A program made the position numbers and the translations under genes. From contig DAHUYQ010000001.1 in assembly GCA_027315115.1 (NCBI GenBank), forward strand, positions 1 to 64,000: DNA of 64,000 bases, in the 5' to 3' direction. The stretch is from Solirubrobacterales bacterium (GTDB lineage Bacteria > Actinomycetota > Thermoleophilia > Solirubrobacterales > Solirubrobacteraceae). Under the pieces are notes generated by a model. The model was not told the DNA's origin. It did not search any database and was given only the letters and a program-made list of their open reading frames with translations. Shown in pieces: positions 7,084 through 40,034 of the stretch (its first letter is position 1; every line of letters begins with the position of its first letter).

Positions 7084-7464
7084 ATGTGCAGGATCGCCAA
7101 GTTTGCCGTCGAGCAGCACCTGCCGGGTGTGATGGGACTGTTTGCCGCAGAGGGCTGGAGCTACGCCAGCGACGAGCAGCGCACCTCGCGGGCATTGTCT
7201 GCGCCCGGCTCGCTGACGCTCGTGGCGCTCGAATCCGACGAAGTGGTCGGCGTCGCGCAGACTCTGGGCGATGGCGAGTTCCAAGCGTTCCTCACGGTGC
7301 TGATCGTCGCCGAGTCACACCGTCGTGCAGGCATCGGTCGCAAGCTCCTGAAGGAGGCGATCGAGGGCACGCCCGGCGTGCATCTCGATCTGATCTCACG
7401 CGCCGACGGCTTCTATGAAGCGATCGGCTTCGAAGCGATGTCTGGGTTTCGCCTGCGCCGGTGA
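7084..7464 (+). CDS. GNAT family N-acetyltransferase
   Basis: A 126-residue single-domain acetyltransferase. The acetyl-CoA binding loop is RRAGIGRKLL at about residues 79-88, preceded by the strand AFLTVLIVAESH and followed by the C-terminal FYEAIGFEAMSGFRL. ATG 7084 was chosen because the frame before it encodes the upstream methyltransferase in another phase. It resembles the small GNATs that modify amino groups of metabolites or drugs; the acceptor is unknown. Confidence 0.7.
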   Translation: MCRIAKFAVEQHLPGVMGLFAAEGWSYASDEQRTSRALSAPGSLTLVALESDEVVGVAQTLGDGEFQAFLTVLIVAESHRRAGIGRKLLKEAIEGTPGVHLDLISRADGFYEAIGFEAMSGFRLRR

Positions 7465-7479
7465 TCCAGGCGCGGGTGA

Positions 7480-7695
7480 TCAGCCAATCGGCACGGTCTC
7501 GTCGTCAAAGATCGCGCGGATCTCGAGGCGGCCGCCGAGAGCCTTGATGTAGTTCTCCAAGGTGGAGAGCCGCATGTCGTCAGAGCGCTCGAACTGCGGA
7601 TTGCTCGATTGCGAGACGGAAAGCAGCGAAGACGAAGAGGATGCGTAGGTGGCCACCGATGCTGCGCACTCCTTCATGTTGTGGTGCGCCGCCAC
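7480..7695 (-). pseudogene. Decayed XRE antitoxin, C-terminal remnant
   Basis: Only the last 45 residues are recognisable (QFERSDDMRLSTLENYIKAL and GGRLEIRAIFDDETVPI). They align closely with the end of the XRE protein at 1082-1300, so the two are paralogous copies 6.4 kb apart. The N-terminal half, including the recognition helices, has been replaced by serine-rich nonsense. It ends just before the PadR gene and marks the edge of the eroded region. Confidence 0.55.
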
Positions 7696-7776
7696 ATCCC
7701 CCGTGGCGTATGACTCGTTTAGGCCCTATGATTCGTGTCCGTTGATTGTGGCGGGCCGGAGCAGAGGGGGTTCCTG

Positions 7777-8391
7777 ATGGCTGACGCGGGTTTCGATGCT
7801 GCGGATGCGCACTTCGAGGGCGGGTCCGCGCATGCTTGGCTTGTGCTCGGCTTGGTGATCGAGCGGCCGAGTCATGGCTATGAGATCGTGCAGCGCTACG
7901 ACGATCGGTTTGGCTGGCTATTACCGATCAGCAGCTCCGGCGTGTATGGGGACTTGGAACGGTTGCGTGGCGACGGCTTCTTGGAGGAGATAGCCGAGGA
8001 GCAGCCTGTTGGGGATGCTCGCAGCCGCAGCCGCCGATGTCTGCGTGCGACTCGGTTGGGCGCGCAGTCGTATCGTGGCTGGCTGGCGGGACGAATGAGA
8101 AACAATCCGCAGCGCTTCGAGCTGCTTGGTCGGCTTGCTTCCAGCGCGGCGTTGGGGGTGCGGGGCGCGATCGACGTGCTGGAGCGTTTTGAGAGCGAGT
8201 GCGTCCGTGAGCTGAAGGCGCTGCCGCTGCTGGACGAGCGTGTCGGTGCAGGGGAGTGCGATGCCGATGAGTTGGCGAAGTGGCTTGCGATCGACCGTCA
8301 GCGCCGGGCGCTGCGAGCTGACCTGGATTGGGTCAGCGACGCGATGCGGCTCTATGCCAAGCGGCGCGAGAAAGGGTCGGGTGCGTCCTGA
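7777..8391 (+). CDS. PadR-like transcriptional regulator
   Basis: A 204-residue regulator. The winged helix covers about residues 12-85: AWLVLGLVIERPSHGYEIVQ, then LLPISSSGVYGDLERLRGDGFLEE, the standard PadR N-terminal domain. A helical dimerisation tail follows (about 100-200). ATG 7777 is preceded by GAGGGGG at good spacing; GTG 7735 is an alternative. The next gene's ATG overlaps this stop (TGATG), so it heads the ABC transporter operon. PadR proteins usually repress efflux or membrane-lipid genes and are released by a small ligand, so it probably controls this operon. Confidence 0.8.
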   Translation: MADAGFDAADAHFEGGSAHAWLVLGLVIERPSHGYEIVQRYDDRFGWLLPISSSGVYGDLERLRGDGFLEEIAEEQPVGDARSRSRRCLRATRLGAQSYRGWLAGRMRNNPQRFELLGRLASSAALGVRGAIDVLERFESECVRELKALPLLDERVGAGECDADELAKWLAIDRQRRALRADLDWVSDAMRLYAKRREKGSGAS

Positions 8392-9116
8392 TGGGGCTAT
8401 TGATGATCGAGCATGTCAGCAAGCGTCATCGCCGGGGACGTCGGGAGTACGTCGCTCTGCGCGACGTGTCGATGAGCGTCGAGGCTGGAGAGGTGGTCGC
8501 GGTGCTGGGCTCGGGCAACTCGGGTCGCCGGACGCTACTGCGGGTCGCGGCGGGCATGGAGCAGCCAGACGAGGGTCGTGTGCTCTTCGAAGGCGAGGAG
8601 GTGGAGTCTGGCGCCGCGCTGATCGGCCGCCGGATCGCGTTTTGTCATACGTCGTTCAACGCGTTGGAGGGCGACCTGGTGGTGGACCATGTCGCGACCG
8701 GGCTGCTTGCCAAGGGCTTTTCGCCAACGCAAGCGCGGCGGACCGCGCATGACGCACTGGCGCGCTGCGGGGCTTCGGGCTGCGCGGATCTCGATCCGTA
8801 CGAGCTCGACAGTGTCGAGCGGGTGCGTGTGGCTTTGGCGCGAGCGCTGGTCAGCGCTCCCGCTCTGATCGTCGTCGATGAGCCGACGGCCGGTGTGGGG
8901 CTGCTGGAGTCCGATCCGCTGCTGCGGCTGATCCGCTCGTTTGCCAAGGACGGCATGGCGGTGCTGCTGGCGACCAGCGACGCGTCATCGCTTGCGGGCA
9001 TCGATCGTGTTGTGATGATCGCTAATGGCGTGGTGCGCGGAGAGACTCATCCTGGGCAGGCGGAGGTGCTGCCGTTCGTGCCGGCACGGCGGCAGGGTCG
9101 GGAGTTGCGCGCGTGA
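8391..9116 (+). CDS. Degenerate ABC transporter ATPase (pseudo-ATPase)
   Basis: A 241-residue ABC nucleotide-binding fold that has lost most catalytic motifs. Walker A reads GSGNSGRRT (about residues 40-48), with Arg in place of the phosphate-binding Lys. The Q-loop Gln is missing in AFCHTSFNAL. The LSGGQ signature is replaced by ELDSVERVRVALARAL. The H-loop His is replaced in LLATSD. Walker B (LIVVDEPTAG, about residue 160) is intact. The gene overlaps PadR by one base and the next ATPase by four (GTGA), so all are translated together. It probably pairs with the canonical ATPase at 9113 as a structural or regulatory half. Confidence 0.8.
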   Translation: MGLLMIEHVSKRHRRGRREYVALRDVSMSVEAGEVVAVLGSGNSGRRTLLRVAAGMEQPDEGRVLFEGEEVESGAALIGRRIAFCHTSFNALEGDLVVDHVATGLLAKGFSPTQARRTAHDALARCGASGCADLDPYELDSVERVRVALARALVSAPALIVVDEPTAGVGLLESDPLLRLIRSFAKDGMAVLLATSDASSLAGIDRVVMIANGVVRGETHPGQAEVLPFVPARRQGRELRA

Positions 9117-9847
9117 GCGTGCTGCAGATCGAGCGTCTGGTCAAGCATTACAGCGACGCGGAGGATCTGGTGCGCGCTGTCGATGGCGTCGATCTCAGCG
9201 TGCAGGCGGGCGAGGTGCTCGCGCTGTATGGGCCAAGCGGCTCGGGGAAGACGACGCTGCTGTTGCTGGCCGCGGGGTTGCTTATCGCCGATCACGGTCG
9301 GGTGCGATTCATGGGTAGGGATCTCGGCGAGATGTCGGCCGGGGAGCTTGCGGCCTATCAGCGCAGCGAGGTTGGCTTCATCTACCAGAGCGCCCATCTG
9401 ATCGGGGGCGTGCCGGCTGTCGAGAACGCGGCGGTGAAGCTGCTCGTGGATGGTGTGAAGCTGTCTGTGGCACGTGAGGTCGCGGCGGGCTGGCTTGCTC
9501 GCGTGGGGTTGGAGCATCGTCTTGATCACACGCCTGACCGGCTTTCGGGCGGCGAGCGGGCGCGCGTGGCGATCGCGCGGGCGTTGGTCAACGAGCCTCG
9601 GCTGATTCTTGCCGATGAGCCGACCGGCAGCCTGGACAGTCACCGTGGTCTGGAGGTGTTGCATCTGCTCTCGCAGATCGCGCGTGAGCGCGAGGCCGCG
9701 GTCGTGCTGGTCACGCATGACCCGCAGGCCGCGCATGTCGCCGACCGTGTGCTGGCGCTGCGCGACGGGATGCTTGCAGAGCCGGTGCAGGGGTTGGCGC
9801 CGGGCGTGCCTGGTGGCGTTCCGTCGTTGGGCCTTTCGCAGGAGTAG
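9113..9847 (+). CDS. ABC transporter ATPase, MacB/LolD type
   Basis: A 244-residue canonical nucleotide-binding subunit. Walker A is GPSGSGKTT (about residues 40-48), the Q-loop is FIYQSAHL, the signature is [15 protein letters not shown] (about 142), Walker B is [12 protein letters not shown] and the H-loop is LVTHD. This is the subclass that energises FtsX-type permeases, which the next gene encodes. It starts at GTG 9113 overlapping the degenerate ATPase. A Gly/Pro-rich tail of about 25 residues extends past the domain. Confidence 0.9.
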
Positions 9848-9853
9848 CCGACG

Positions 9854-12406
9854 GTGCGTTTTTCGACGCTGCTGTATCTGTATGGCCGCCGGCTGCGGAG
9901 CAGCTTGGTGCAGGAGCTGCTGGCGGGTTTGGGGATCGGAGTCGGGGTGGCGCTTGTGTTTGCGGTGCAGGTCGCCAACAGCAGCATCACGGCGGGCAGC
10001 GAACAGATCGAGAAGAGCTTGATCGGCCCGGCCACGCTGCAGATGCGTGCCCGCAGCGACCTGGGTTTCAGCGAACGGGTCGCCAAGCGGGTCTACGGTC
10101 TGCCGGGGGTGCGGCGGGCAGCGCCGGTGCTCGACCTGCCAGGCAGCGTGCAGACGGGCGGCCGGCATCTGGCTGTGCAGATAGCCGGGGCTGAACTGAC
10201 GCTTGCGGCGCTGGATGGCCTGGCCGGGCGTCTGCCGCTGGAACATCTGCAGCCGCGGGTGGTGATGCTCCCACAGGCCGCCGCGGAAGCGCTCGGCGTC
10301 TCCACGACGCTTGGGCCGGGGGTGGCCAGGCCGCTGCCAAACGTGATGCTGCGGGTGCGTGGCCGCTCGATGCAGGTGCGCGTCGCGGCTGTGCTCGGCA
10401 AGGAAACGGTCGGGCCGCTGGCCAACGCGATGACCGTGATCGTGCCGCTGGAACTGCTGCAGAGCGTCGCCGGCCTGCAGGGCCGGGTGACGCGGATGCT
10501 GGTCGATCCGCTGCCCGGCCAGAAGAGCAGGGTGCGTTCGGAGCTCCAGCAGGTGGCCGCGGGTCGCCTGACGGTGGGGCCCGCCAACGAAGACATCGCC
10601 CTGCTCGGTCAGGCGAGCACCCCCAACGCGCAGGCGACGGCGTTCTTCGCGTTCGTGAGCGCGCTGGTCGGGCTGCTTTTGGCGTTCAACGCGATGCTGT
10701 TGAGCGCGCCGGAGCGGCGGCGCATGATCGCCGACCTGCGCATCCAGGGCGCCCGCCCGATCTCTCTGGTCAACCTGATGCTCTTCCAGGCGCTCTGCCT
10801 GGGGCTGGTCGCGTCAGCGGTGGGTGTGCTCGCGGGCGATCTGCTTGCAAGCAGCGTGTTTCACCAGACGCCGGGGTATCTGGCGAGCGCGTTCATGCTG
10901 GGAGACCAGACCGTGATCGGCTGGCAGCCCGTCGTCTTCTCGATGCTCGGAGGCGTGGCAGCCACGTGCCTGGCTGCCGCCTCCCCGCTGCTGGATCTGC
11001 GTCGATCGCGCGCGATCGACGCTGTGCACCACGAGGTCGGGGAGCCCGGACAGGCGCTGCCAGCAAGAACGCAGACGCTGCTTTTCATCGCCTCGGTCGC
11101 GATCGTGGCGATCACCAGCGGCGCGCTGCTGATCGCTCCCTCTCAGGTTCTGCCGGCCACGCTCGGGCTTGCCGTCGCGACGCTGCTCGCGATCCCCTAC
11201 TGGTTCACGCTGCTGGTACGCCTGGTGCAGCATGCGACCGCGCGGTCCGGCCGCGCGAACATCCTGTTTCTCGCCGCCCGCGGCTGCAGGGCGAGCACTC
11301 TGCGCTCCCTGGCGCTGGCGGCGACCGGCGCGATCGCGGTCTTCGGCGCCGTCGTAGCCAACGGGTCGCACAGCGATCTGCTCAAAGGCCTCGACGGCGA
11401 CTACGCCGGCTACGTCTCCACCGCGAAGCTGTGGATCACAAACAAGGGCGACGAACTGGCGACCAACAGCATCGCCGCGTCCGGCCTGGCCGCACGGATC
11501 GACAGGATCCCGGGCGTCGCGGAAGCCCGCCCATACCAAGGCTCGTTTCTGAACCTCGACGGCCGTCGCGTCTGGGTGATAGCACGCTCCCCCCGAGTGA
11601 AAACCATGCTGCCGCCCTCCCAGATCACCGACGGGAGCCCGGCAGCCACGATGCGGCTGCTGCACGCCGGAGGATGGGTCACCATCTCCAAGCAGCTCGC
11701 CGAGGCAGCGCACACCCAACGGGGCGGGGATGTGAGCCTGCCCACCCCGAGCGGGCCTGTGAGCTATCGCGTCGCGGCGATCACGACCAACCTTGGATGG
11801 ACCTCAGGAGCGATCGTGATGAGCGACACCGACTACCGCCACGCATGGGCCACCGGCGCCCCGAGCGCGATCGAAATCAGCACACGCAGCCGCGTCGACC
11901 TGGCCGCGGTGCAGCGCGCGGTTGGCGTCGCCATCGCCGGGTATGCGGGACTGCGCGTGCAGACCAGCAGCCAACGCTCAGCCCAGGCAGACAACCTCGC
12001 CCGCGAAGGCCTCAGCCGCCTCAGCCAGATCTCACTGCTGCTGATCATCGCCGCGGCGCTGGCAATGGCCGCCGCGATGGGCGCCTCGGTCTGGCAGCGA
12101 CGCGCCTCCCTGGCATCGCTGAGGATCCAGAGCTTCAACCTCTGGCAGCTCCGCCGCCTGCTGCTATACGAGTCCGGCCTGATCCTCGCCGCCGGCTGCC
12201 TGATCGGAATGCTCGCCGGCATCTACGGGCATCTCCTCAGCGACAACTTCCTCAAGCTGACCACCGGCTTCCCAGCCCCATTCACGCTCGGCATCAGCCA
12301 GATGCTGCAAACCCTGACGATCGTCATCCTCGCCGCGCTACTGGTCCTACTCGCCCCAGGCTATGCAGCCGCGCAGGCGCCGCCGACGCTCGCGCTGCAA
12401 GAGTAG
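9854..12406 (+). CDS. FtsX/MacB-type ABC permease, 850 residues
   Basis: A large permease starting at GTG 9854, six bases after the ATPase gene. It has an N-terminal membrane helix (about 20-42) and a large extracytoplasmic domain. Three helices follow near 255-390, then further helices and a second extracytoplasmic domain, and finally a second FtsX core (about 725-845). This duplicated arrangement is that of single-chain exporters of the LolC/MacB superfamily, which move lipids or peptides out of the membrane rather than across it. With the two ATPases it would make an asymmetric transporter. The substrate may be a product of the terpene synthase downstream (inference). Confidence 0.85.
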   Translation: MRFSTLLYLYGRRLRSSLVQELLAGLGIGVGVALVFAVQVANSSITAGSEQIEKSLIGPATLQMRARSDLGFSERVAKRVYGLPGVRRAAPVLDLPGSVQTGGRHLAVQIAGAELTLAALDGLAGRLPLEHLQPRVVMLPQAAAEALGVSTTLGPGVARPLPNVMLRVRGRSMQVRVAAVLGKETVGPLANAMTVIVPLELLQSVAGLQGRVTRMLVDPLPGQKSRVRSELQQVAAGRLTVGPANEDIALLGQASTPNAQATAFFAFVSALVGLLLAFNAMLLSAPERRRMIADLRIQGARPISLVNLMLFQALCLGLVASAVGVLAGDLLASSVFHQTPGYLASAFMLGDQTVIGWQPVVFSMLGGVAATCLAAASPLLDLRRSRAIDAVHHEVGEPGQALPARTQTLLFIASVAIVAITSGALLIAPSQVLPATLGLAVATLLAIPYWFTLLVRLVQHATARSGRANILFLAARGCRASTLRSLALAATGAIAVFGAVVANGSHSDLLKGLDGDYAGYVSTAKLWITNKGDELATNSIAASGLAARIDRIPGVAEARPYQGSFLNLDGRRVWVIARSPRVKTMLPPSQITDGSPAATMRLLHAGGWVTISKQLAEAAHTQRGGDVSLPTPSGPVSYRVAAITTNLGWTSGAIVMSDTDYRHAWATGAPSAIEISTRSRVDLAAVQRAVGVAIAGYAGLRVQTSSQRSAQADNLAREGLSRLSQISLLLIIAAALAMAAAMGASVWQRRASLASLRIQSFNLWQLRRLLLYESGLILAAGCLIGMLAGIYGHLLSDNFLKLTTGFPAPFTLGISQMLQTLTIVILAALLVLLAPGYAAAQAPPTLALQE

Positions 12407-12485
12407 GAACGCCCGCTCCAGCCGCAACTCGGCCTGTCACTTAGCGCGTCTGGACGCAGACGCCGGTCTGCCGCAGCATTCGACT

Positions 12486-13571
12486 ATGCAACGTCTGACG
12501 GCACGCGAACTGCTTGCCAGCGGCATGCTCTACTGGACGGCGATATACCCTCGCGCACGAGCACAGCTCGCGCGCTGGCATCGCCGTGCCGCAAGCGCTC
12601 CAGACCCGACGCTGCGCGAGCTCGCGCTGCAGAAGCTGACCGCGGAGCGGCTGAATCCTGAGGCGGCAGCGCTTTTCGCATCCACCGGCCCGCACAGGGC
12701 GTGCAGCACGTCTCTGATCGCGTTGATCGTCGCCTACCAAGTGCTCTACGACTACCTCGACGCGGTCAACGAGATGCCCGGAAGCCAAGCGCTGAGCAAC
12801 GGCCTGCAACTGCATCGCGCGCTGACCGACGCATTGCGACCCGGCGAGCCGATCGCCGACCTCTACCGCGAGAACCCCCAGCGTCATGACGGCTCCTACG
12901 CCAAGACGCTGACCGCGACCTGCACGCATCTGCTCGCGACTCTGCCAAGCAGCGCAAGACTGGCTGAGAGCCTTTGCTGCGCCGCGGAGCGCTGCCGCCA
13001 GGCACAGGCCCGCAACCACGCCATCGCCGACGACGGGACGAGCGCCCTGCGTCAATGGTGCCGGGCTCAAGCGGTCGATGCCGAGATGCTGTGGTGGGAG
13101 ACCGCCGCCGCCGGAATCTCCTGCCTCGGCGTCCACGCCCTGCTGGCAAGAGCCGCAGACCCGCACAGCGTAAAGGCCGACGCGAGCGCAACAGATGCGG
13201 CGTACTTCCCAGGCGTGTGCGCGATCAGCGCGCTGCTTGACAGCCTCGCCGACCATCACACAGACCAGGCAACCGCCAACCACAGCTTCACAGCCCACTA
13301 CGACACGACCACCCATGCGGCCGCTCGGCTGATCGCCATCACCCGAGAAACTGCGAGCCGTCTCGATGGGCTCAGACGCGATCGTCGGCACGCCTTCATC
13401 TTGTGGGGCATCCTCGCCTTCTACCTCTCGGCGCCCACCCTGCACCCCTCCTTCTCAGCGCCCGTAGGCCAAGCCATGATCGACGCCTCGGGCCTGGCCA
13501 CCCGCTTTATGCGCGCCGCCATGCAGGTCCGGCGCCGCATCGCCACAAAAGATAGTCAGCCACCTGAATAA
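12486..13571 (+). CDS. DUF2600/YtpB-like large-terpene synthase
   Basis: This 361-residue all-helical protein belongs to the DUF2600 family, whose Bacillus member YtpB is tetraprenyl-beta-curcumene synthase (class IB). The first acidic motif is YDYLDAVNE at about residues 87-95, the position of the DYLD metal-binding motif. A second, LLDSLADHHTD (about 250), lies where YtpB has its other Asp-rich motif. The expected substrate is a C20-C35 linear prenyl diphosphate. ATG 12486 follows the permease stop by 79 bases on the same strand, so it probably belongs to the same operon. The variant acidic residues leave the exact reaction open. Confidence 0.75.
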   Translation: MQRLTARELLASGMLYWTAIYPRARAQLARWHRRAASAPDPTLRELALQKLTAERLNPEAAALFASTGPHRACSTSLIALIVAYQVLYDYLDAVNEMPGSQALSNGLQLHRALTDALRPGEPIADLYRENPQRHDGSYAKTLTATCTHLLATLPSSARLAESLCCAAERCRQAQARNHAIADDGTSALRQWCRAQAVDAEMLWWETAAAGISCLGVHALLARAADPHSVKADASATDAAYFPGVCAISALLDSLADHHTDQATANHSFTAHYDTTTHAAARLIAITRETASRLDGLRRDRRHAFILWGILAFYLSAPTLHPSFSAPVGQAMIDASGLATRFMRAAMQVRRRIATKDSQPPE

Positions 13572-14185
13572 TCAGCACGCGCGTTATGCGGCGACAGCGG
13601 CGATGCGACGATGCACATCGACGATGCCAGCAGTTGACATCGCCTGGACAACCCGCCGCAAGTGACCACACAGCCGCACCCCCACATAGATGCCTCCTTG
13701 CCGCCTTTGATGGCGCAGGCGCGTGATCGCCACGCCACACAGGGCGCGACCGGACATCACCAAGCTGCTCGTACGCGCTACGCCGGCTCGCTGCCGTCGA
13801 TGAGGGCAGCCTGTCAGCGCATACCCCACCCGAGGTATCACGAGACCCTCGTGTTGGCAGTGAGCCGGCGCAGCGCGTACGGCATCCCGGAGGCCACAGA
13901 AGGCCGGATCGCCCCCCAAGATGATGGGCGGGCATCCGGCCTGCTGCGTGCCACAGAGACACGACCTCGGACAGCGTGATGCTGGCCGTCACATATTCAC
14001 CCACCCGCAAGGCGAGCATCGTGACGCACTGGCGGCCAGCCAATCCGTCTGATGAACCGTCGAGGGCGCCCCGTCGAGCGAAGGCATCCGACGCTCTCGC
14101 GCAGTTCGTGCGGCCCTGGCTCTTCTGGATGCGAGCGCGGACCGGGTTCACGGCAAACCTCGCGACGCTCGACGGTGGTGAGCTG
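13572..14185. other. Intergenic stretch without convincing gene
   Basis: About 600 bases after the terpene synthase. Frames on both strands are open by virtue of high GC but their products are unlike proteins (mixed Arg, His and Cys, no motif). The frame of the next plus-strand gene stays open back to 13976, but sequence before ATG 14186 looks non-coding. Decayed coding sequence is possible; nothing can be named. Confidence 0.4.
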
Positions 14186-14611
14186 ATGTACACGGCATGG
14201 ATGCCGAGCAGGCTTGTCGGGCAGGTCGAACAGGCGGCTGCACGGCAGCCCGGGTGGTCGGCATCGGCGCATTCGCGTGCGGCGGGGTTGGCGTTGTTGG
14301 CGTATACGGCGGAGGGTGATTGGCCTGAGCGGACGCGTGGGTGGGCGTGCCGGGATCCAAAGCGGCATGCGCGGCTGCTTGGCGAGCTGGAGGAGGTTTG
14401 TGAGCGGCGTTATGCGGTTCGGCGTGATGCTGCTGGCGTTGGGGTTGCGGCCGCGGTGCTTGGTGTGAGCGAGGCGGTCGCGGCGGTGGAGCTCAGCGTC
14501 TTTGGCGAGCATGCTCGGGGAGCTGGTCTGCGTGGGCTGGCGGGTGTGGTTGTCGAGGCTGCCGGTGGGATCGCCGAGCAGCTTGAGGATGACAGTGGGA
14601 CGGTCGCATGA
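14186..14611 (+). CDS. Hypothetical protein preceding a PadR gene
   Basis: A 141-residue protein from ATG 14186, preceded by a weak GGTGG. It has an acidic/basic helical middle (ARLLGELEEVCERRYAVRRD) and an Ala/Val-rich C-terminal half. No family is recognised. Its stop overlaps an out-of-frame ATG, and the PadR gene begins one base later, so the two would be cotranscribed. Upstream extension to 13976 is possible but poorly supported. Confidence 0.4.
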   Translation: MYTAWMPSRLVGQVEQAAARQPGWSASAHSRAAGLALLAYTAEGDWPERTRGWACRDPKRHARLLGELEEVCERRYAVRRDAAGVGVAAAVLGVSEAVAAVELSVFGEHARGAGLRGLAGVVVEAAGGIAEQLEDDSGTVA

Positions 14612-14612
14612 G

Positions 14613-15302
14613 ATGCTGGCTGGTGAGCGGCGTGGCGGCGCAGCATCCGCTGATTTTGGATCGATGCCGGCGCGGCATGCGGTACGGCTGCTGGTGCGGG
14701 GGTTGTTGAGGGTGCCGCGGCAGAAGCGGTCTTCGGGCGGGTCGCCGGCTGTGGCTGGTGGTGCTGTGCAGCATTTGATGCTGGCGTTGTTGAGTGCGGC
14801 GCCTGGTCATCCGTATGAGCTTTATCGGCGTTATCGGCGGCGGTTTGGCGATCTGATACCGGTTTCCGGCACGACGGTTTACAGGATGCTGCCGATGCTT
14901 GCCGAGCGTGGGCAGGCGCAGGCCATTCCGCTTGCCGACCGGGCGGGTCTGAGACGGGTTTCTGAGCCGCAGGCCAGCTACAGGGTCACCGAGGCTGGGC
15001 GGCAGGCGGCGCGTGGATGGGTGCTCTCGCCGGTGCGTGCTGAGCGCTGGCGCCAGGAACTGCTTGCGCGGATGGACGCGGCGAGCATCCTCGGGGTAGA
15101 TGCGCTCTACGAGCTGCTCTCGCGGTATGAGCAGGCGCGCGGGGAGCAAGAGCGCGAGCTGCGAGGTCAGCTCGACGAGCTTCCCGAGAGCGAGGGGGTG
15201 CTTGGGCATCGCCTATCGCTGGAGGAGCGTGTTGGTGTGCTGGAGAGGCAGGGGCAATGGGTGCTGCTGGCTCGTGGACGGCTGGGAGAGCGTCGTCCAT
15301 GA
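14613..15302 (+). CDS. PadR-like transcriptional regulator (second)
   Basis: About 229 residues from ATG 14613. After a basic leader of about 50 residues the PadR winged helix follows: VQHLMLALLSAAPGHPYELY, then DLIPVSGTTVYRMLPMLAERG. It is the same fold as the PadR at 7777, with a similar length and the same P(I/V)S motif before the recognition helix. The C-terminal half is a helical, Glu-rich dimerisation region. It follows the terpene-synthase operon by about 1 kb and could answer to the same ligand (inference). Earlier in-frame starts exist from 14502. Confidence 0.65.
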   Translation: MLAGERRGGAASADFGSMPARHAVRLLVRGLLRVPRQKRSSGGSPAVAGGAVQHLMLALLSAAPGHPYELYRRYRRRFGDLIPVSGTTVYRMLPMLAERGQAQAIPLADRAGLRRVSEPQASYRVTEAGRQAARGWVLSPVRAERWRQELLARMDAASILGVDALYELLSRYEQARGEQERELRGQLDELPESEGVLGHRLSLEERVGVLERQGQWVLLARGRLGERRP

Positions 15303-15468
15303 GCCACAGACCGACCACATCATCTTCGGCCAGATGCTGGCCGAGGTCTCGATCGCGCGGTGCCGCTGGCCGCTATCGCGTTTCCCGACGCAGGCTGGCG
15401 GCCACACGGCGCTGCGCGGTCGAACAAAACCGCCCGGAGCAGACCATGTCCGTGACCGGCGTGGCAGC

Positions 15469-15687
15469 GTGCCCGTGAAGCCCGCAGGGTCATACCAGGC
15501 GCGAGCGCGCGAGATGCTGCGCCTACGCGACGAGGAGCACCTCACGCTGCGGGAGATCGGCGAGCGCTACGGCCTCAGCACCGAGCGCGTCCGACAGATC
15601 ACCAACCGCTGCCGATACACGCTGCAGAACTCAGATCACCCCCCGCAACGCGGCACTGCGCCGCGATCGGGGTCTACCGCCCCGTGA
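15469..15687 (+). CDS. Small sigma-70 region-4-like HTH protein
   Basis: A 72-residue protein starting at GTG 15469 or GTG 15475. Residues 8-50 (ARAREMLRLRDEEHLTLREI then GERYGLSTERVRQITNR) have the region 4.2 helix-turn-helix of sigma-70 factors, including the RVRQI recognition helix. There is no region 2, so it is not a sigma factor by itself. A truncated copy of the same stretch lies at about 16478-16550. The 3' end overlaps the RHH gene on the other strand by 14 bases. Confidence 0.5.
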   Translation: MPVKPAGSYQARAREMLRLRDEEHLTLREIGERYGLSTERVRQITNRCRYTLQNSDHPPQRGTAPRSGSTAP

Positions 15688-30147: not shown

Positions 30148-30159
30148 CTCTCTCTTCTC

Positions 30160-30290
30160 GTCGGCCGGCGGGGTTAGCTGACGGGCTGGCGACGTGCGCC
30201 TCCCACGGAACACCGTGGAACTCGCCCCAACAACTTGGTTCCCCCACTCCCAGGCGGGGCCTGGGATTAGGCGGCTGCAAGCCTACTGGA
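30160..30290 (-). ncRNA. ydaO/yuaA-type cyclic-di-AMP riboswitch
   Basis: The minus strand upstream of the LytM-like gene carries the conserved elements of the ydaO class in order: GCCTAATCC, a short GC hairpin, GTGGGGGAACCA, TTGGGGCGAGTTCC, AGGCGCACG, then GCCCGTCAGCTAACCCCG near the 3' end. The last element is the most distinctive block of this riboswitch. In actinobacteria it commonly sits before cell-wall hydrolase genes, where c-di-AMP binding reduces expression. It ends about 15 bases before the ATG. Confidence 0.8.
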
Positions 30291-32795: not shown

Positions 32796-32868
32796 GCCGA
32801 CGTAGCTCAGCCGGTAGAGCACCTCCATGGTAAGGAGGGGGTCAGGGGTTCGAGTCCCCTCGTCGGCT
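32796..32868 (+). tRNA. tRNA-Thr (GGT)
   Basis: A full cloverleaf. The acceptor GCCGACG pairs with CGTCGGC. The anticodon stem CCTCC/GGAGG encloses loop ATGGTAA with anticodon GGT. The T arm is AGGGG-TTCGAGT-CCCCT. The discriminator base is T and no CCA is encoded. Confidence 0.95.
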
Positions 32869-33559: not shown

Positions 33560-33756
33560 TGCACGACGATGCTACGCACGGTCCCGGTTGCGCTAGCGCT
33601 CTGAAGCCTCCTGGCAAGCGCAACCGACACATGGGCGCAGACGCTTCTCCGGCTGGAGCCAACCCACGCCCGCCCACGACCCCCATCTCCGTAGTTTCCA
33701 GCCCCCGCCTCCGAGCCTGCTACCGATGAGCCGCGCGGGCGCTTGCTCGACGATCG

Positions 33757-35856
33757 TTGCTCATGTCCGACCACATCGGCGTCGCCCCGCTGATCGAGCG
33801 ATGGCTCACCGCGCCCGGGGGCGGCCGCAGCGAGGATCCGTTTGCGCTGGTCGGATGGAGCACGCGCCGGGTCTCGCTGCCCGGGCAGGAGGACCGGGCC
33901 GCGACACAGCGGGACGTCGAAGCGCCGGACTCCTGGTCGCAGGCGGCAGTGGCGACCGTCGCCGGCCGCTACCTCGGCCGTCTCCCTGACGGCTCTCAGG
34001 AGCGCTCGATCAGGTCGCTCGTCGAGCGCGTGGTGGGCACGATCGGCGAATGGGCGCAGGCGTCCGGGCACGCGGCGGGGGCGCATGAGCGCACGACGTT
34101 GATGGCCGAGCTCGCCGCGCTAGTGCTCACGCAGCGCGCCACGTTCGCCACGCCGGTGTGGCTGAACGTCGGCCTGGAGCCGCAGCCGTTCACCTCGGCC
34201 TGCTTCATCCTCGAAGCCGAGGACTCGATCCGCTCTCTGCTGGACTGGAACTCACGCGAGGGCCTGATCTTCCAGCAGGGCGGAGGGTCTGGCATCAACC
34301 TATCCAAGGTGCGCTCGTCGCACGAGCCGGTCTCGCGCGGCGGATTCGCGAGCGGGCCCGTGTCGTTCATGCGCGCCACCGACGCGTGGGCCGCCACGAT
34401 CCGCTCGGGTGGGCGGGCGCGCCGCGGCGCCAAGATGGTGGTGCTGGACGCCGAGCACCCCGACGTGCTCGACTTCATCTCCTGCAAGGCGCGTGAGGAG
34501 GAGCGCGGCCTGGCGCTGGTGGCGGCGGGCTACGACCCGCAGGAGGTCGTGCGCTCGCTGGCCTTCCAGAACGCGACGCATGCGGTGCGCGTCAGCGACG
34601 GCTTCATGCACGCAGCCGAGACCGGCGGCGATTGGAGCCTGCGGGCCGTGAGAACCGGCGAGGCGCTCGACACTCTGCCCGCCCGGGAGCTGCTGGCAGC
34701 CTGCGCCAAGGCCGCATGGCGCTGCGGCGACCCGGGACTGCAGTTCGCCGAGACGATCGAACGCTGGCACACCTGTCCCCGCTCGGGGCCGATCGTCGCG
34801 TCCAACCCGTGCGGCGAGTTCCTGCACGTCGGCGAGTCGGCATGCAACCTCGCGACCCTGAACCTGCTCGCCTTCCTCACCAGGCACGGCACGTTCGACA
34901 CGAGCTCGTTCGTCCGCGCGGTGGAGCTGCTCGTGCTGGCCCAGGACGCGATCGTCGACGGCTCCGCCTACCCCACCGAGCGCATCGCCACGGGCGCGCG
35001 ACGCTTTCGCCCGCTTGGACTCGGATACGCGAACCTCGCCGCGCTGCTGCTGACGCTGGGGGTCGCCTACGACTCCGATCGGGCGCGCGGATGGGCGGCC
35101 GCGATAACCGCGCTGATGAGCGCCGTCGCCTACCGTCGCTCCGCTCAGCTCGCGGCGGCGCTCGGCCCCTTCGAGGAGTTCGAGGCCAACCGCGAGCCGA
35201 TGCTGGACGTGCTCGCCCGCCACCGCGACGCCGCTGCGGCGATCGGGGCCGACGCGCCCGCCGCTGTGCTCGCGGTGGCCCGCGCAGAATGGGAGCAGGC
35301 GCTCGCGCAGGCACAGGCTCACGGCCTGCGCAACTCGCAGACGACGCTCATACCGCCGACCGGCACGGTCAGCCTGATGCTCGACTGCGAGACCACGGGC
35401 GTCGAGCCCTACTACGCGCTCTCCGGGCGCAAGCATCTCGCCGACGGCGGCGAGCTCCACTTCCAGAGCCGAGCGGTAGCCGACGCTCTGCTCGCGCTCG
35501 GCTACTCCACGCACGCCGTGGAGGAGCTCGGCGAGTACGCGCTGGACCACGGGCATCTCGCCGGCGCCCCTGCGCTGCGCCCCGGCGACGGGCCCGTCTT
35601 TCAAACCGCCGGCGGCCCCGACCCGCTCCCGATCGCCGCGCACCTGCGCATGGTCGCGGCCGTGCAGCCGTTGGTCAGCGGCGGCGTATCCAAGACGGTC
35701 AACCTGCCACACGACGCCTCGCCGCAGGCGATCGAGCAGGTCTTCCTCGACGCCTGGCGCCTGCGCCTGAAGTCGATCTCCGTGTACCGCCAGGGGTCGA
35801 AGGTCGAACAGCCGCTGGAGGCGGAGCAGAGTCCCGAACGGGCTCATGCCGGATGA
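33757..35856 (+). CDS. nrdZ: Short class II (B12-dependent) ribonucleotide reductase
   Basis: A 699-residue reductase making deoxynucleotides with adenosylcobalamin. The three core cysteines are present: TSACFI (about 146), the thiyl-radical Cys in NPCGE (about 352) and GESACNL. The nucleotide-binding QGGGSGINLSKVR and the late PPTGTVS and SVYRQGSK blocks are also visible. It ends right after the last block and lacks the C-terminal tail with the CXXC redox pair found in long NrdJ enzymes, as in mycobacterial NrdZ (about 690 residues). No B12 riboswitch was recognised upstream, and no partner subunit is needed. Confidence 0.88.
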   Translation: MLMSDHIGVAPLIERWLTAPGGGRSEDPFALVGWSTRRVSLPGQEDRAATQRDVEAPDSWSQAAVATVAGRYLGRLPDGSQERSIRSLVERVVGTIGEWAQASGHAAGAHERTTLMAELAALVLTQRATFATPVWLNVGLEPQPFTSACFILEAEDSIRSLLDWNSREGLIFQQGGGSGINLSKVRSSHEPVSRGGFASGPVSFMRATDAWAATIRSGGRARRGAKMVVLDAEHPDVLDFISCKAREEERGLALVAAGYDPQEVVRSLAFQNATHAVRVSDGFMHAAETGGDWSLRAVRTGEALDTLPARELLAACAKAAWRCGDPGLQFAETIERWHTCPRSGPIVASNPCGEFLHVGESACNLATLNLLAFLTRHGTFDTSSFVRAVELLVLAQDAIVDGSAYPTERIATGARRFRPLGLGYANLAALLLTLGVAYDSDRARGWAAAITALMSAVAYRRSAQLAAALGPFEEFEANREPMLDVLARHRDAAAAIGADAPAAVLAVARAEWEQALAQAQAHGLRNSQTTLIPPTGTVSLMLDCETTGVEPYYALSGRKHLADGGELHFQSRAVADALLALGYSTHAVEELGEYALDHGHLAGAPALRPGDGPVFQTAGGPDPLPIAAHLRMVAAVQPLVSGGVSKTVNLPHDASPQAIEQVFLDAWRLRLKSISVYRQGSKVEQPLEAEQSPERAHAG

Positions 35857-36040
35857 GCCGCACCGGATGGGCTGGGCCGGCTGACCCGCGCCGACCCACA
35901 GGGCGCACGCACGCCCCGACCCGCGCGGAGCGCGCCGCGGACTTTCACGGACGCGCTTGGGGGTGCATTCACGATGAGAGGCCGACTGCGGCGGCGGTAC
36001 GGTCGCAGTACCTGGCCGGATCGAGCACAAAGGAGTCCAG

Positions 36041-36418
36041 ATGCCAGCTGCCAAGACACCACAGCCACGTCCTTCGGCGGCAGCCGCCGCCCGGGCTCGC
36101 GCAGAGGACGATCAACGCCAACTCGACCACGTGATGCAGTCGCTGGAAGCGGCCCAGAAGGATCTCGCCTCGATCGGAGGCAGCGTGGGCACAGGCGTGC
36201 GCGATCTGCGTCGCGACGTCAACAAGCTGATTCGCGACGCGCGTAGAGACGTCGTGAAGATGCGCCGGGCCGTGCAGCGCGACCTCGTGCGCCTGCAGAA
36301 GGACCTGAGCAAGGCAGCCACGGCCAAGCCATCGGCCTCACGTCGCCGAGCGACCACGGCCACCTCCAGGACCGCGGGGCGGCGCAGCGCCGCAAGCTCG
36401 CATCAGCCCGGTAGATGA
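36041..36418 (+). CDS. Basic coiled-coil, histone-like tail protein
   Basis: A 125-residue protein. The middle (about 22-92) is a long amphipathic helix (QLDHVMQSLEAAQKDLASIG, RDVNKLIRDARRDVVKMRRA, DLVRLQKDLSKAA). The last 35 residues are a Lys/Arg/Ser/Thr-rich tail like histone H1-type or nucleoid proteins. Its TGA overlaps an ATG at 36415 that opens the frame of the Lon-like gene. Binding to DNA or to the cell envelope is possible; nothing decides it. Confidence 0.55.
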   Translation: MPAAKTPQPRPSAAAAARARAEDDQRQLDHVMQSLEAAQKDLASIGGSVGTGVRDLRRDVNKLIRDARRDVVKMRRAVQRDLVRLQKDLSKAATAKPSASRRRATTATSRTAGRRSAASSHQPGR

Positions 36419-36489
36419 CGGGCGACATACGGCGCTCACAGCGGGCCGCGGGCGACGCCGGCTCGGCCACCGTGAGCAGACGGTGGCCG

Positions 36490-38955
36490 ATGAGCGACCG
36501 CGAGCGACTGCGGCTCGACGCGGAGCAGTTGCGCCGCCGCTGCGACCCGGCCACGCTCCCCTTCGCGACGACGGCGGAGGTCGAGCCGTCGGACGGCGCG
36601 ACCGGCCAGCAGCGCGCGGTGCGCGCCATCGACTTCGCCGTGCGGGCGCCGCAGCTCGGCTACAACGTGTTCGCGACCGGGCCGGCCGGAGTGAGCAAGC
36701 GCGAGACGATCGAGACGCAGCTTCGCGCCCACGCGCGAACCCAGCCCGCGCCCGAGGACGTGGTGTTCCTGTTCAACTTCGAGGAGCCGAGCAGGCCGCT
36801 GTGCGTGACGCTGCCCGCGCGGCAGGGCCGCCGCCTGGCGCGCATGATGGCGGCGTTCGTCGCGCAGGCCTCGCGGGAGATACCACATGCGTTCGAGAGC
36901 GAGAGCTATCGTCGCCGCCGCTCGGAGGTGACGGAGCCCTTCGAACGCGAACGCGAGGACACGCTGGAGCAGATACGGTCGTTCGCACGCTCGCGCGGAC
37001 TGGATCTGGAGGTCACGCCGGCCGGCGTCGCGTCGATCCCGCTCGTGCACGGGCGACCTGTCACCCCGAGCGAGTTCCAGCAGCTACCCGAGCAGACGCG
37101 TAAGCAGCTCAGCGCCGCCGGCCACGAGGTCGAGCTGCGCATGAACACCGTCGTGCCGGCGCTGCGAGAGATCGAATCGCGTGCGCGCGAGCGGATGCGC
37201 GCGCTCGACCGCGAGGTCGTGCTGTTCGCCGTCGGACATCTGATCGAGGAGATCAAGCGCGAGTACGCCGACTCGCAGACGCTCTGCTCGTGGCTGGAAC
37301 GCGCCCGCGAGGACGTGGTCGATAACTACGGAGGCTTCCTCGCCAATGCCGAGCAGGCGCAGATGGCGGCGCCGATGCGCGCCGTGCTGGGGAGGGGAAT
37401 GGAGGCGTTTCACGCGCGCTACGAAGTCAACGCGTTCGTCGCCGGCGAGCAGGACGGCGCGCCGGTCGTGGTCGAGCGCAACCCGACGTTCGCGCGTCTG
37501 TTCGGGCGGATCGAGTTCGAGACGACGCTCGGCCTCGCCAGCACCGACCATCGCCACATCAAGGCGGGCTCGATCCATGAAGCCGCCGGCGGCTACATGA
37601 TCCTGCGCGCCGAGGACGTGCTGCGTCAACCGTTCGTGTGGGATCGGCTGAAGGAGATCCTGCGCACCGGACAGGCGCGCGTCGAGAACCTCGGCGAGCA
37701 GTTCACGCTCTTCCCCATGGCGACGCTCACCCCCAATCCGGTGCCGGTGCGGGTGAAGATCGTGCTCACCGGGTCGCTGCAGCTCTACGAGCTGATGCAC
37801 GCGCTCGACGAGGATCTTGCCGACCTGTTCCGAGTGAGAGCCGACTTCGACGTGCAGATGCCCTGGACCGAGGAGGAGCCCGCACGGTATGCCGCGTTCG
37901 TCAGCGCGCTCGTCGCGCGCGAGGGGCTGCTGCACTTCGACGCCGGCGCGATCGCGCGCATCGTCGAGGACGGCGCGCGCCGCGCCGCCCACCAGGGCCG
38001 GCTCTCGACCCGCTACGAGCAGATCAGCGACCTGGTCATCGAGTCAAGTCACTGGGCGGCGGCGGGCGGCGCCGAGCTGGTGGGCGGCGTGCACGTCGAG
38101 CAGGCGCTGCGCGAGCACCGCCAACGCTGCGACCTGATCGAGCAGCATCTGGCGGAGATGGTCGACGAAGGCGTGCTGCATGTCGAGCTGACCGGCGGTG
38201 CCCTGGGACAGATCAACGGGCTGGCGGTGCTCGGCCTCGGCGACTACGCCTTCGCTCACCCGGCCCGCATCACGGCCACGACCGCGATCGGGAGCGGCGA
38301 GGTGCTCAGCATCGACCGCGAGAGCAAGCTCACCGGCAAGATCCACGACAAGGGCTTTCTGTCGCTGCGCGGATACCTGGAGCAGCGCTACGGCGGGCAG
38401 CGACCGCTCGCGCTTTCGGCAAGCCTCACCTTCGAGCAGTCGTACAGCGGCCTGGACGGCGACTCGGCGTCCAGCGCCGAGCTCTACGCGCTGCTGTCGA
38501 GCCTCGCCGAGGCGCCCCTCGACCAGGGGATCGCGGTCACCGGCTCGGTCGACCAGCACGGGCGCGTGCAGGCGGTCGGCGGGGTGACCGAGAAGGTCGA
38601 GGGCTTCTTCGACGCCTGCGACCGCGCCGGCCTAACCGGCGGGCAGGGCGTGATCGTTCCCGCCAGCAACGTCAAGCACCTGATGCTCGGCGACCGCGTC
38701 ATCTCGGCGGTTCGCGAGGGCCGCTTTCACGTCTGGGCGATCGAGCGCGTCGAGCAGGGGATGGAGCTTCTCACCGGCCTGCCGGCAGGCGAGCTCGCGG
38801 CCGACGGCACATATCCGGAGGGCAGCCTGCACCGTCGCGTCCAGGACCGCCTGCTGAGCATGGCGCGAGCGGCGCAGGAGTGGAGCGGCAGGCGTCCGCC
38901 TCGCGACGCCGGCTCTGCGCCCGCGCCAGGCGCGAACGGGTCCAGCGCGCAGTAG
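36490..38955 (+). CDS. Lon-like protease with degenerate AAA module
   Basis: About 821 residues of the non-canonical Lon family that begins LDAEQLRRRCDPATLPFATT. The nucleotide loop is GPAGVSKRET: the second glycine before Lys is Ser and the following residue is Arg, so ATP binding may be weak. The C-terminal Lon proteolytic domain keeps the Ser of GDSASSAELYALLSSLAEAP (about 659) and the Lys of GGVTEKVEGF (about 701). MSDRERLRL at 36490 was preferred because it matches the family N terminus; ATG 36415 overlapping the upstream stop is possible. It is probably an ATP-independent or weakly ATP-dependent protease. Confidence 0.85.
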   Translation: MSDRERLRLDAEQLRRRCDPATLPFATTAEVEPSDGATGQQRAVRAIDFAVRAPQLGYNVFATGPAGVSKRETIETQLRAHARTQPAPEDVVFLFNFEEPSRPLCVTLPARQGRRLARMMAAFVAQASREIPHAFESESYRRRRSEVTEPFEREREDTLEQIRSFARSRGLDLEVTPAGVASIPLVHGRPVTPSEFQQLPEQTRKQLSAAGHEVELRMNTVVPALREIESRARERMRALDREVVLFAVGHLIEEIKREYADSQTLCSWLERAREDVVDNYGGFLANAEQAQMAAPMRAVLGRGMEAFHARYEVNAFVAGEQDGAPVVVERNPTFARLFGRIEFETTLGLASTDHRHIKAGSIHEAAGGYMILRAEDVLRQPFVWDRLKEILRTGQARVENLGEQFTLFPMATLTPNPVPVRVKIVLTGSLQLYELMHALDEDLADLFRVRADFDVQMPWTEEEPARYAAFVSALVAREGLLHFDAGAIARIVEDGARRAAHQGRLSTRYEQISDLVIESSHWAAAGGAELVGGVHVEQALREHRQRCDLIEQHLAEMVDEGVLHVELTGGALGQINGLAVLGLGDYAFAHPARITATTAIGSGEVLSIDRESKLTGKIHDKGFLSLRGYLEQRYGGQRPLALSASLTFEQSYSGLDGDSASSAELYALLSSLAEAPLDQGIAVTGSVDQHGRVQAVGGVTEKVEGFFDACDRAGLTGGQGVIVPASNVKHLMLGDRVISAVREGRFHVWAIERVEQGMELLTGLPAGELAADGTYPEGSLHRRVQDRLLSMARAAQEWSGRRPPRDAGSAPAPGANGSSAQ

Positions 38956-39961: not shown

Positions 39962-40034
39962 TGGGCCGTGCAGGAATCGAACCTGCAACCTTGGGCTTAA
40001 GAGGCCCCTGCTCTGCCAATTGAGCTAACGGCCC
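39962..40034 (-). tRNA. tRNA-Lys (CTT)
   Basis: On the minus strand the acceptor GGGCCGT pairs with ACGGCCC, and the anticodon loop CTCTTAA gives anticodon CTT. The T arm is TGCAG-GTTCGAT-CTGCA-like, and the discriminator is A. The top pair of the anticodon stem (G-A) is mismatched. No CCA is encoded. Confidence 0.93.

Follow-up and report, generated by a model that had tools for sequence, protein, structure and literature searches.

A terpene synthase gene linked to a Type VII-like ABC transporter in Solirubrobacterales: a probable cassette for making and exporting isoprenoids

How bacteria export very hydrophobic terpenes is largely an open question, and the locus described here raises it in a concrete form: do a terpene synthase gene and the ATP-binding cassette (ABC) transporter genes directly before it form one system? 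The locus lies in a stretch of 64,000 nucleotides from a Solirubrobacterales bacterium (GenBank assembly GCA_027315115.1, contig DAHUYQ010000001.1, positions 1 to 64,000), and this whole stretch is called the window below. The block in question spans positions 7777-13571 and encodes a PadR-family regulator, two ATPases (NBDa and NBDb), a permease and an enzyme of the DUF2600 family. An earlier note on this DNA had proposed that such genes make a cyclic long-chain terpenoid and move it through the membrane. Our analysis leads us to consider it reasonably probable that the block is a dedicated isoprenoid production-and-export cassette, the ABC complex of which lifts the product out of the membrane. 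Pfam matches and a reading of the sequence agree on the five genes and on the positions that the note had given them:

7777..8391, forward strand: PadR-family regulator, the first gene of the block (PF03551, E-value 1.6e-8)
8391..9116, forward strand: NBDa, a degenerate ABC ATPase (PF00005, E-value 4e-19)
9113..9847, forward strand: NBDb, an ABC ATPase with canonical motifs, LolD/YbbA/MacB-like (PF00005, E-value 4e-30)
9854..12406, forward strand: FtsX-type permease of 850 amino acids (PF02687, two stretches)
12486..13571, forward strand: DUF2600, class IB (large-)terpene synthase by predicted family (PF10776, E-value 3.4e-67, 227.1 bits against a cut-off of 25)

As read from the sequence, the PadR and NBDa genes overlap in TGATG at 8389-8393, the NBDa and NBDb genes share 4 bases (GTGA at 9113), and the permease gene follows NBDb after 6 bases. 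The spacing of 79 bases between the permease and DUF2600 genes, which was part of the earlier proposal, holds for a synthase start at 12486. It depends on that choice, since the frame is open upstream to an alternative ATG at 12363, from which the gene would overlap the permease gene instead; the starts chosen for four DUF2600 paralogues (L009-L012; loci, contigs and genomes carry the labels L, C and G) likewise overlap the permease. A scan of positions 7400-15400 found no terminator between the permease and DUF2600, and a consensus scan of the same positions found no sigma-70-like promoter. The PadR gene, the ATG of which is preceded by a purine-rich stretch, also scores 22.1 bits for PF10400, slightly under the cut-off of 22.4. 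An alignment of the upstream DNA of the window with that of the four nearest relatives gave no convincing motif for a PadR operator or promoter, and this line was dropped. The idea of a defence system was rejected, as PADLOC gave just generic ATPase and weak permease matches.

Evidence that the synthase and the transporter belong together comes from the same genome and from its relatives. The genome (3.33 Mb in 65 contigs) contains nine DUF2600 genes according to a PF10776 search, along with 12 close and two distant relatives of the permease. A related permease gene lies directly beside every one of the nine DUF2600 genes, with gaps of about -35 to 102 bases; NBDb adjoins eight of the nine and an NBDa-type ATPase seven, two of the cassettes being cut by contig ends. 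Three permease relatives in this genome occur without DUF2600, two of them in tandem on C14 and the third on C27 (L034). Beyond this genome, the surveys were samples of genomes and not exhaustive. DUF2600 was found in 15 of 24 genomes of the genus, in none of the 17 other genomes of the same search, in 25 of the 399 genomes sampled from the class, Thermoleophilia (from 8 of 128 genera; at most five candidates were scored per genome, and some genomes hold further copies) and in one of 396 genomes of the phylum, which is the window's own. With two candidates scored per genome, an E-value of 1e-60 for the permease profile was reached in at least four of these 396.

Among the neighbourhoods fetched from the class, 79 of 92 DUF2600 genes have a permease gene within 3.5 kb, with the synthase downstream on the same strand in 64 pairs, on the opposite strand in 8 and upstream in 7. 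For this count fragment pairs were merged, the duplicates L069, L073, L074, L076 and L077 and the locus L068 (from a bin named Sorangium, perhaps contaminated) were excluded beforehand, and the tiny contig-end fragments G022:C117 and G023:C221 were left out. The remaining 13 genes comprise L097, with a permease at 3.6 kb, nine genes near contig ends, and L163, L164 and L167, which have none. Outside the genus the linkage holds for 26 of 32 genes, and a single genus from another family accounts for four of the six exceptions (L158, L163-L165). The full set of five genes accompanies 51 of the 90 synthase genes longer than 900 bases; contig ends make this number smaller than it would otherwise be. 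Among named records, the set is carried for example by Conexibacter sp. CPCC 205762, which is listed as a strain and not as a metagenome bin, and by a Patulibacter bin; within the genus, the matching contigs come from metagenome bins of Solirubrobacterales. The association of DUF2600 with the permease is therefore beyond chance both in the genome and in the survey. The earlier note had asked whether the ABC set is a rare or a usual neighbour of DUF2600; it is the usual one and, together with the absence of a detected terminator, this supports the view that synthase and ABC set are one unit.

The enzyme itself was assigned with the help of a profile of the nine paralogues, which matches one solved protein, the tetraprenyl-beta-curcumene synthase BalTS (5yo8, also 6loo and 6lop; E-value 1.5e-77). 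Class IB enzymes such as YtpB form hydrocarbons from prenyl diphosphates and carry the motifs DYLDNLxD and DY(F,L,W)IDxxED (PMC7839719). The window enzyme has DYLDAVNE and DSLADHHTD; D89, D92 and E96 as well as D252, S253, D256 and D260 (window numbering) are invariant in the nine paralogues, and both acidic motifs are complete in 74 of 90 relatives. The predicted model (predicted local distance difference test, pLDDT, 87.5; predicted template modelling score, pTM, 0.89) matches 6loo and 5yo8 with a template modelling (TM) score of 0.85 (0.85/0.89 to 6loo) at 27 percent identity, and the next match is far weaker. Profile match, motifs and predicted fold thus agree, and the assignment of DUF2600 as a class IB terpene synthase, already made in the earlier note, is supported at this level. 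The window enzyme is like YtpB of Bacillus subtilis and BalTS in family, fold and aspartate positions. It differs in that the second motif is here mostly DSxxDxxxD, in the many copies per genome, and in its surroundings, as no ABC genes lie within 8 kb in the one Bacillus-type neighbourhood examined, which is on an Anoxybacillus plasmid.

The permease was modelled with moderate confidence (pLDDT 78.6, pTM 0.70). The model contains ten long helices and two outer regions, at residues about 62-243 and 526-704, which follow helix one and helix seven. The outer domains of YbbP are placed in the same way (PMC12646458), and the best fold matches are indeed YbbP structures (9ge6 with TM 0.61/0.64, and 9ge7), with LolE, BceB and MacB next. 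The best NCBIfam matches of NBDb are LolD, which is closest, DevA, MacB and YbbA, all under the equivalog cut-offs. Two features of Type VII systems, an FtsX-fold permease with outer domains and an ATPase of the LolD/MacB/YbbA group, are present, and as modelled the permease has a YbbP-like Type VII layout, Type VII being the class of MacB, Lol and YbbAP.

The two ATPases are not alike. In an alignment, NBDa of the window has Arg for the Walker A Lys, ELDSVE as its signature and Asp in the H-loop, and keeps the Walker B Asp-Glu, so that the label of pseudo-ATPase used in the earlier note was right in kind. Single alignment columns show the H-loop His in 0 of 61 NBDa proteins and in 68 of 68 NBDb proteins. 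The NBDa relatives retain the Walker A Lys in 41 of 61, the catalytic Glu in 29 and the second signature Gly in 15; the NBDb relatives have the Lys in 66 of 68 (2 gaps) and the catalytic Glu in all 68. Both ATPase genes precede 59 of 73 full-length permease genes in DUF2600 loci. As for the other 14, seven are at contig edges, five have NBDb only and one (L015) has NBDa only; the tally holds two entries without either ATPase. Where DUF2600 is lacking (22 loci with 25 permeases), both ATPases were found at 11 of 25 permeases and NBDa only at six; L147 and L188 hold two permeases each. Permeases with an NBDa-type ATPase alone were seen at L015, in the window's genome, and at L173, L174, L178, L183, L184 and L188; as the lone ATPase there has no H-loop His, any canonical partner would need to be supplied from another place.

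Further genes recur around the cassettes. Neighbour families were defined by clustering the open reading frames (ORFs) within 6 kb at 91 DUF2600 loci and 22 loci without DUF2600, and by models built from these clusters. A cis-prenyltransferase family (PF01255 with an E-value of 9e-67 for one member, catalytic residues kept) occurs at 9 DUF2600 loci and 3 loci without. In L169-L171, all from genome G017, the cis-prenyltransferase gene follows the permease gene in the place of DUF2600. A search of 13 genomes gave 19 cis-prenyltransferase genes. Ten are no more than 4 kb from a cassette gene, and each of the remaining nine is the single remote copy of a different genome; three incomplete genomes yielded no such gene, and in G003 all three copies sit at cassettes. 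Cytochrome P450 genes (PF00067) were found at 5 DUF2600 loci, directly behind DUF2600 in L009, L011, L065 and L099, and at 0 loci without. Two other families, SEC1 (26 DUF2600 loci and 14 without) and SEC2 (22 and 14), start with stretches that look by eye like signal peptides. In nine genomes of the genus, 28 of 37 SEC2 copies have a permease or DUF2600 gene no more than 4 kb away, and the zone within that distance covers at most 2.8 percent of the genome; this count leaves out 8 matches in four other genomes, the permeases of which were not all listed. L116 and L118 each hold a series of eight genes on one strand, in the order PadR, NBDa, NBDb, permease, DUF2600, cis-prenyltransferase, SEC2 and SEC1. 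SEC1 has no match in PDB or Pfam, and its matches in L163 and L164 are weak (42 bits) and away from any ABC cassette. SEC2 could not be placed in a known family: it has no relative in PDB (best E-value 0.02, to designed trefoils), and the Dirigent matches, which 3 of 24 members gave, are weak (best E-value 0.0035) and a hint only.

The 51 complete cassettes were also compared gene by gene. Distances between synthases and between permeases correlate with r 0.78, the highest of 300 permutations being 0.125 (permutations that ignore relatedness), and the two trees have 20 of 48 splits in common. This agreement implies that the synthase was mostly inherited with the cassette, with some exchange. 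The ABC genes agree better with one another than with the synthase (for example, 0.87 for the permease and NBDa). The cassettes have probably multiplied and diverged as units and, since they did so, each probably has its own product.

How might such a cassette work? DUF2600 would ionise and cyclise a prenyl diphosphate, giving a lipophilic, probably C20-C35, terpene that would dissolve in the membrane. The ABC complex, envisaged as one double-length FtsX permease with an asymmetric ATPase pair in which NBDb alone has complete canonical motifs, would then spend ATP on drawing the terpene from the outer leaflet, in the manner of Type VII systems. The terpene would next reach the cell surface or, in the case of many cassettes, be handed to secreted partners. 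The block would be switched by PadR, probably in response to a lipophilic ligand. Type VII systems act on the outer side of the membrane without passing molecules through it, and YbbAP pulls hydrophobic compounds out of the membrane (Primer on YbbAP, PMC12654888). This build is at odds with the earlier wording that the product is moved through the membrane, and a product lifted out of it would be the better description (PMC12654888). Taking together the linkage, the recruited isoprenoid enzymes and this Primer, we regard synthesis into the membrane followed by ATP-driven extraction at the outer face as the most likely course. A wider proposal is more tentative, and we are inclined to doubt it in its full form: an asymmetric Type VII ABC complex, with a degenerate and a canonical ATPase and a double-length permease, might accept isoprenoids and hand them to a secreted acceptor pair, with exchangeable prenyl enzymes (a class IB synthase or a cis-prenyltransferase, sometimes with a P450), and might have multiplied into product-specific cassettes.

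Several points weigh against reading the block as a production-and-export cassette. The product, its cyclisation and its export are predictions. In 14 of 90 synthases the first Asp of the first motif is Asn, and in 2 of 90 the first Asp of the second motif is Glu. The permease family occurs without DUF2600 in 20 of 20 loci fetched for that purpose, and the single-ATPase cassettes counted above mean that the asymmetric pair is not universal. The window cassette has no cis-prenyltransferase, P450 or secreted pair anywhere in the 64 kb of the window. Moreover, Type VII systems serve signalling and resistance too, and the shared descent of adjacent genes suffices to make their trees agree.

The chief rival explanation is envelope defence: a PadR-controlled Type VII ABC system would protect polyprenyl-phosphate carriers, as BceAB-type systems do, or remove pyrophosphate-binding antibiotics, while DUF2600 or the cis-prenyltransferase would tune the polyprenyl diphosphate pool. 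It has this rank because loss of the DUF2600 protein YtpB in B. subtilis raises heptaprenyl diphosphate and sensitises the cells to bacitracin (cited in PMC7038271). A functional link of BceAB to heptaprenyl diphosphate and YtpB is discussed in the same paper. Its finding that the build-up of heptaprenyl diphosphate does not inhibit BceAB counts against this reading. BceAB is a Type VII relative and is among the structural matches of the permease (TM 0.30-0.38), and cis-prenyltransferases, the makers of the wall lipid carrier, are present at 12 loci. BceAB systems have a two-component partner. Also against this reading, neither a sensor kinase nor an undecaprenyl-diphosphate phosphatase came to notice among the recurrent neighbours, the clusters of which were annotated in part. 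In addition, the P450s behind the synthase fit tailoring of a product better than envelope defence, and the permease has two outer domains like YbbP where BceB has one (PMC12646458). On balance we judge envelope defence to be unlikely.

Still less probable, in our view, is that the cassette serves to produce and position a structural terpenoid of the membrane or wall, hopanoid- or sporulene-like, in place of a metabolite that is released, and that the ABC complex moves this lipid within the envelope. MMPL/RND proteins move hopanoids and wall lipids, and MMPL-family transporters lie near DUF2600 in L010 (124-2493, directly preceding the ABC set), L163 (11661-14756), L164 (4237-7326) and L158 (12433-13761); the Pfam match for this family was run on the L034 member. 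In B. subtilis the known products of DUF2600 are lipids of the spore surface (PMC11708026). One structural lipid would nevertheless not lead us to expect nine diverged copies in a genome, nor the absence of DUF2600 from 9 of 24 genomes of the genus (some of them incomplete). It seems most improbable that the ABC set and the synthase have separate functions and travel together because the loci duplicate as blocks. Such duplication does occur, as a 1.55 kb segment downstream of the window's cassette has an 82 percent identical counterpart at C14, and the ABC set exists without DUF2600; yet the linkage holds despite several changes of order and orientation, and different isoprenoid enzymes have been recruited to the same type of cassette.

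The probable production-and-export cassette can be compared with known systems. YbbAP-TesA of Escherichia coli has a double-length permease with two outer domains, as has the cassette, the permease model of which likewise shows ten long helices, and in both an ABC exporter set is encoded beside an enzyme acting on hydrophobic compounds. YbbAP, however, contains two copies of one ATPase, whereas NBDa and NBDb differ consistently, and its partner is an outer hydrolase, whereas here a terpene synthase and PadR control are found. No TesA-type hydrolase is among the annotated recurrent neighbour families, in which no model search was aimed at hydrolases, and no export signal was noticed on the synthase, for which no dedicated test was made. 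BceAB shares with the cassette a Type VII ABC set with a long permease, but BceB has one outer domain (PMC12646458) against two here, and the cassette includes PadR and the synthase. MacB and LolCDE resemble it in their FtsX-type permeases with MacB/Lol-like outer domains and in the closeness of NBDb to LolD models, although the proteins here are under all curated cut-offs of those families. Among the open-licence papers listed by literature searches, none describes the PadR, NBDa, NBDb, permease and DUF2600 set, which is weak evidence of absence and within that scope agrees with the earlier note, which knew of no described pathway with this set; nor was a description of a consistently asymmetric ATPase pair in a Type VII fold seen among the papers listed. 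The pairing of an enzyme predicted to form large cyclic terpenes with an ATP-driven transporter, in many copies in one soil actinobacterial lineage, suggests that such lipids are made and exported by a route not yet described. Because synthase and transporter are physically linked, in dozens of natural cassettes, product and transporter can be tested together. The lineage also offers the asymmetric ATPase pair, two secreted-looking proteins that may act as lipid acceptors, and a great many class IB synthases still to be explored.

Other features near the block and elsewhere in the window are the following:

13976..14611, forward strand: ORF resembling IclR_C, a downstream neighbour of uncertain membership in the unit (PF01614, 23.2 bits, cut-off 24)
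14589..15302, forward strand: second PadR-like gene, start and membership uncertain (PF03551, 26 bits, cut-off 27)
15349..15423, forward strand: long hairpin, its arms about 35 bases each, inside a repeat unit of about 110 bases at 15310-15430
30148-30283, reverse strand: riboswitch for cyclic diadenosine monophosphate (c-di-AMP; 57.1 bits, gathering score 38)
32796-32868 and 39962-40034: tRNAs

IclR-like genes recur near the cassette in 23 loci, a count made without comparison to the genome background, and were for that reason not built on. The second PadR-like gene is matched at 80 percent identity by a copy next to the C14 cassette (L033). The whole block with the IclR-like ORF, this second PadR gene and the hairpin (window 14089-15643) corresponds to L033 9870-11406 on C14 and is 82 percent identical to it. 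Four copies of the hairpin repeat were found in the genome (C7, C14, C24 and C27), all within 2 kb of a cassette gene; in 23 other genomes of the genus, where candidates were partly scored, no full copy and two short partial matches were found. A second short repeat lies at window positions 15500-15628, in an ORF that by eye resembles a helix-turn-helix of the sigma region 4 type, and is found again near the cassettes of L011, L012, L033 and L034. Lastly, an array like those of clustered regularly interspaced short palindromic repeats lies close to the cassette in L033 (11712-14586, C14 about 33711-36585) and extends almost to the contig end; 39 copies of its 36-base repeat were found, spaced by 71-75 bases.

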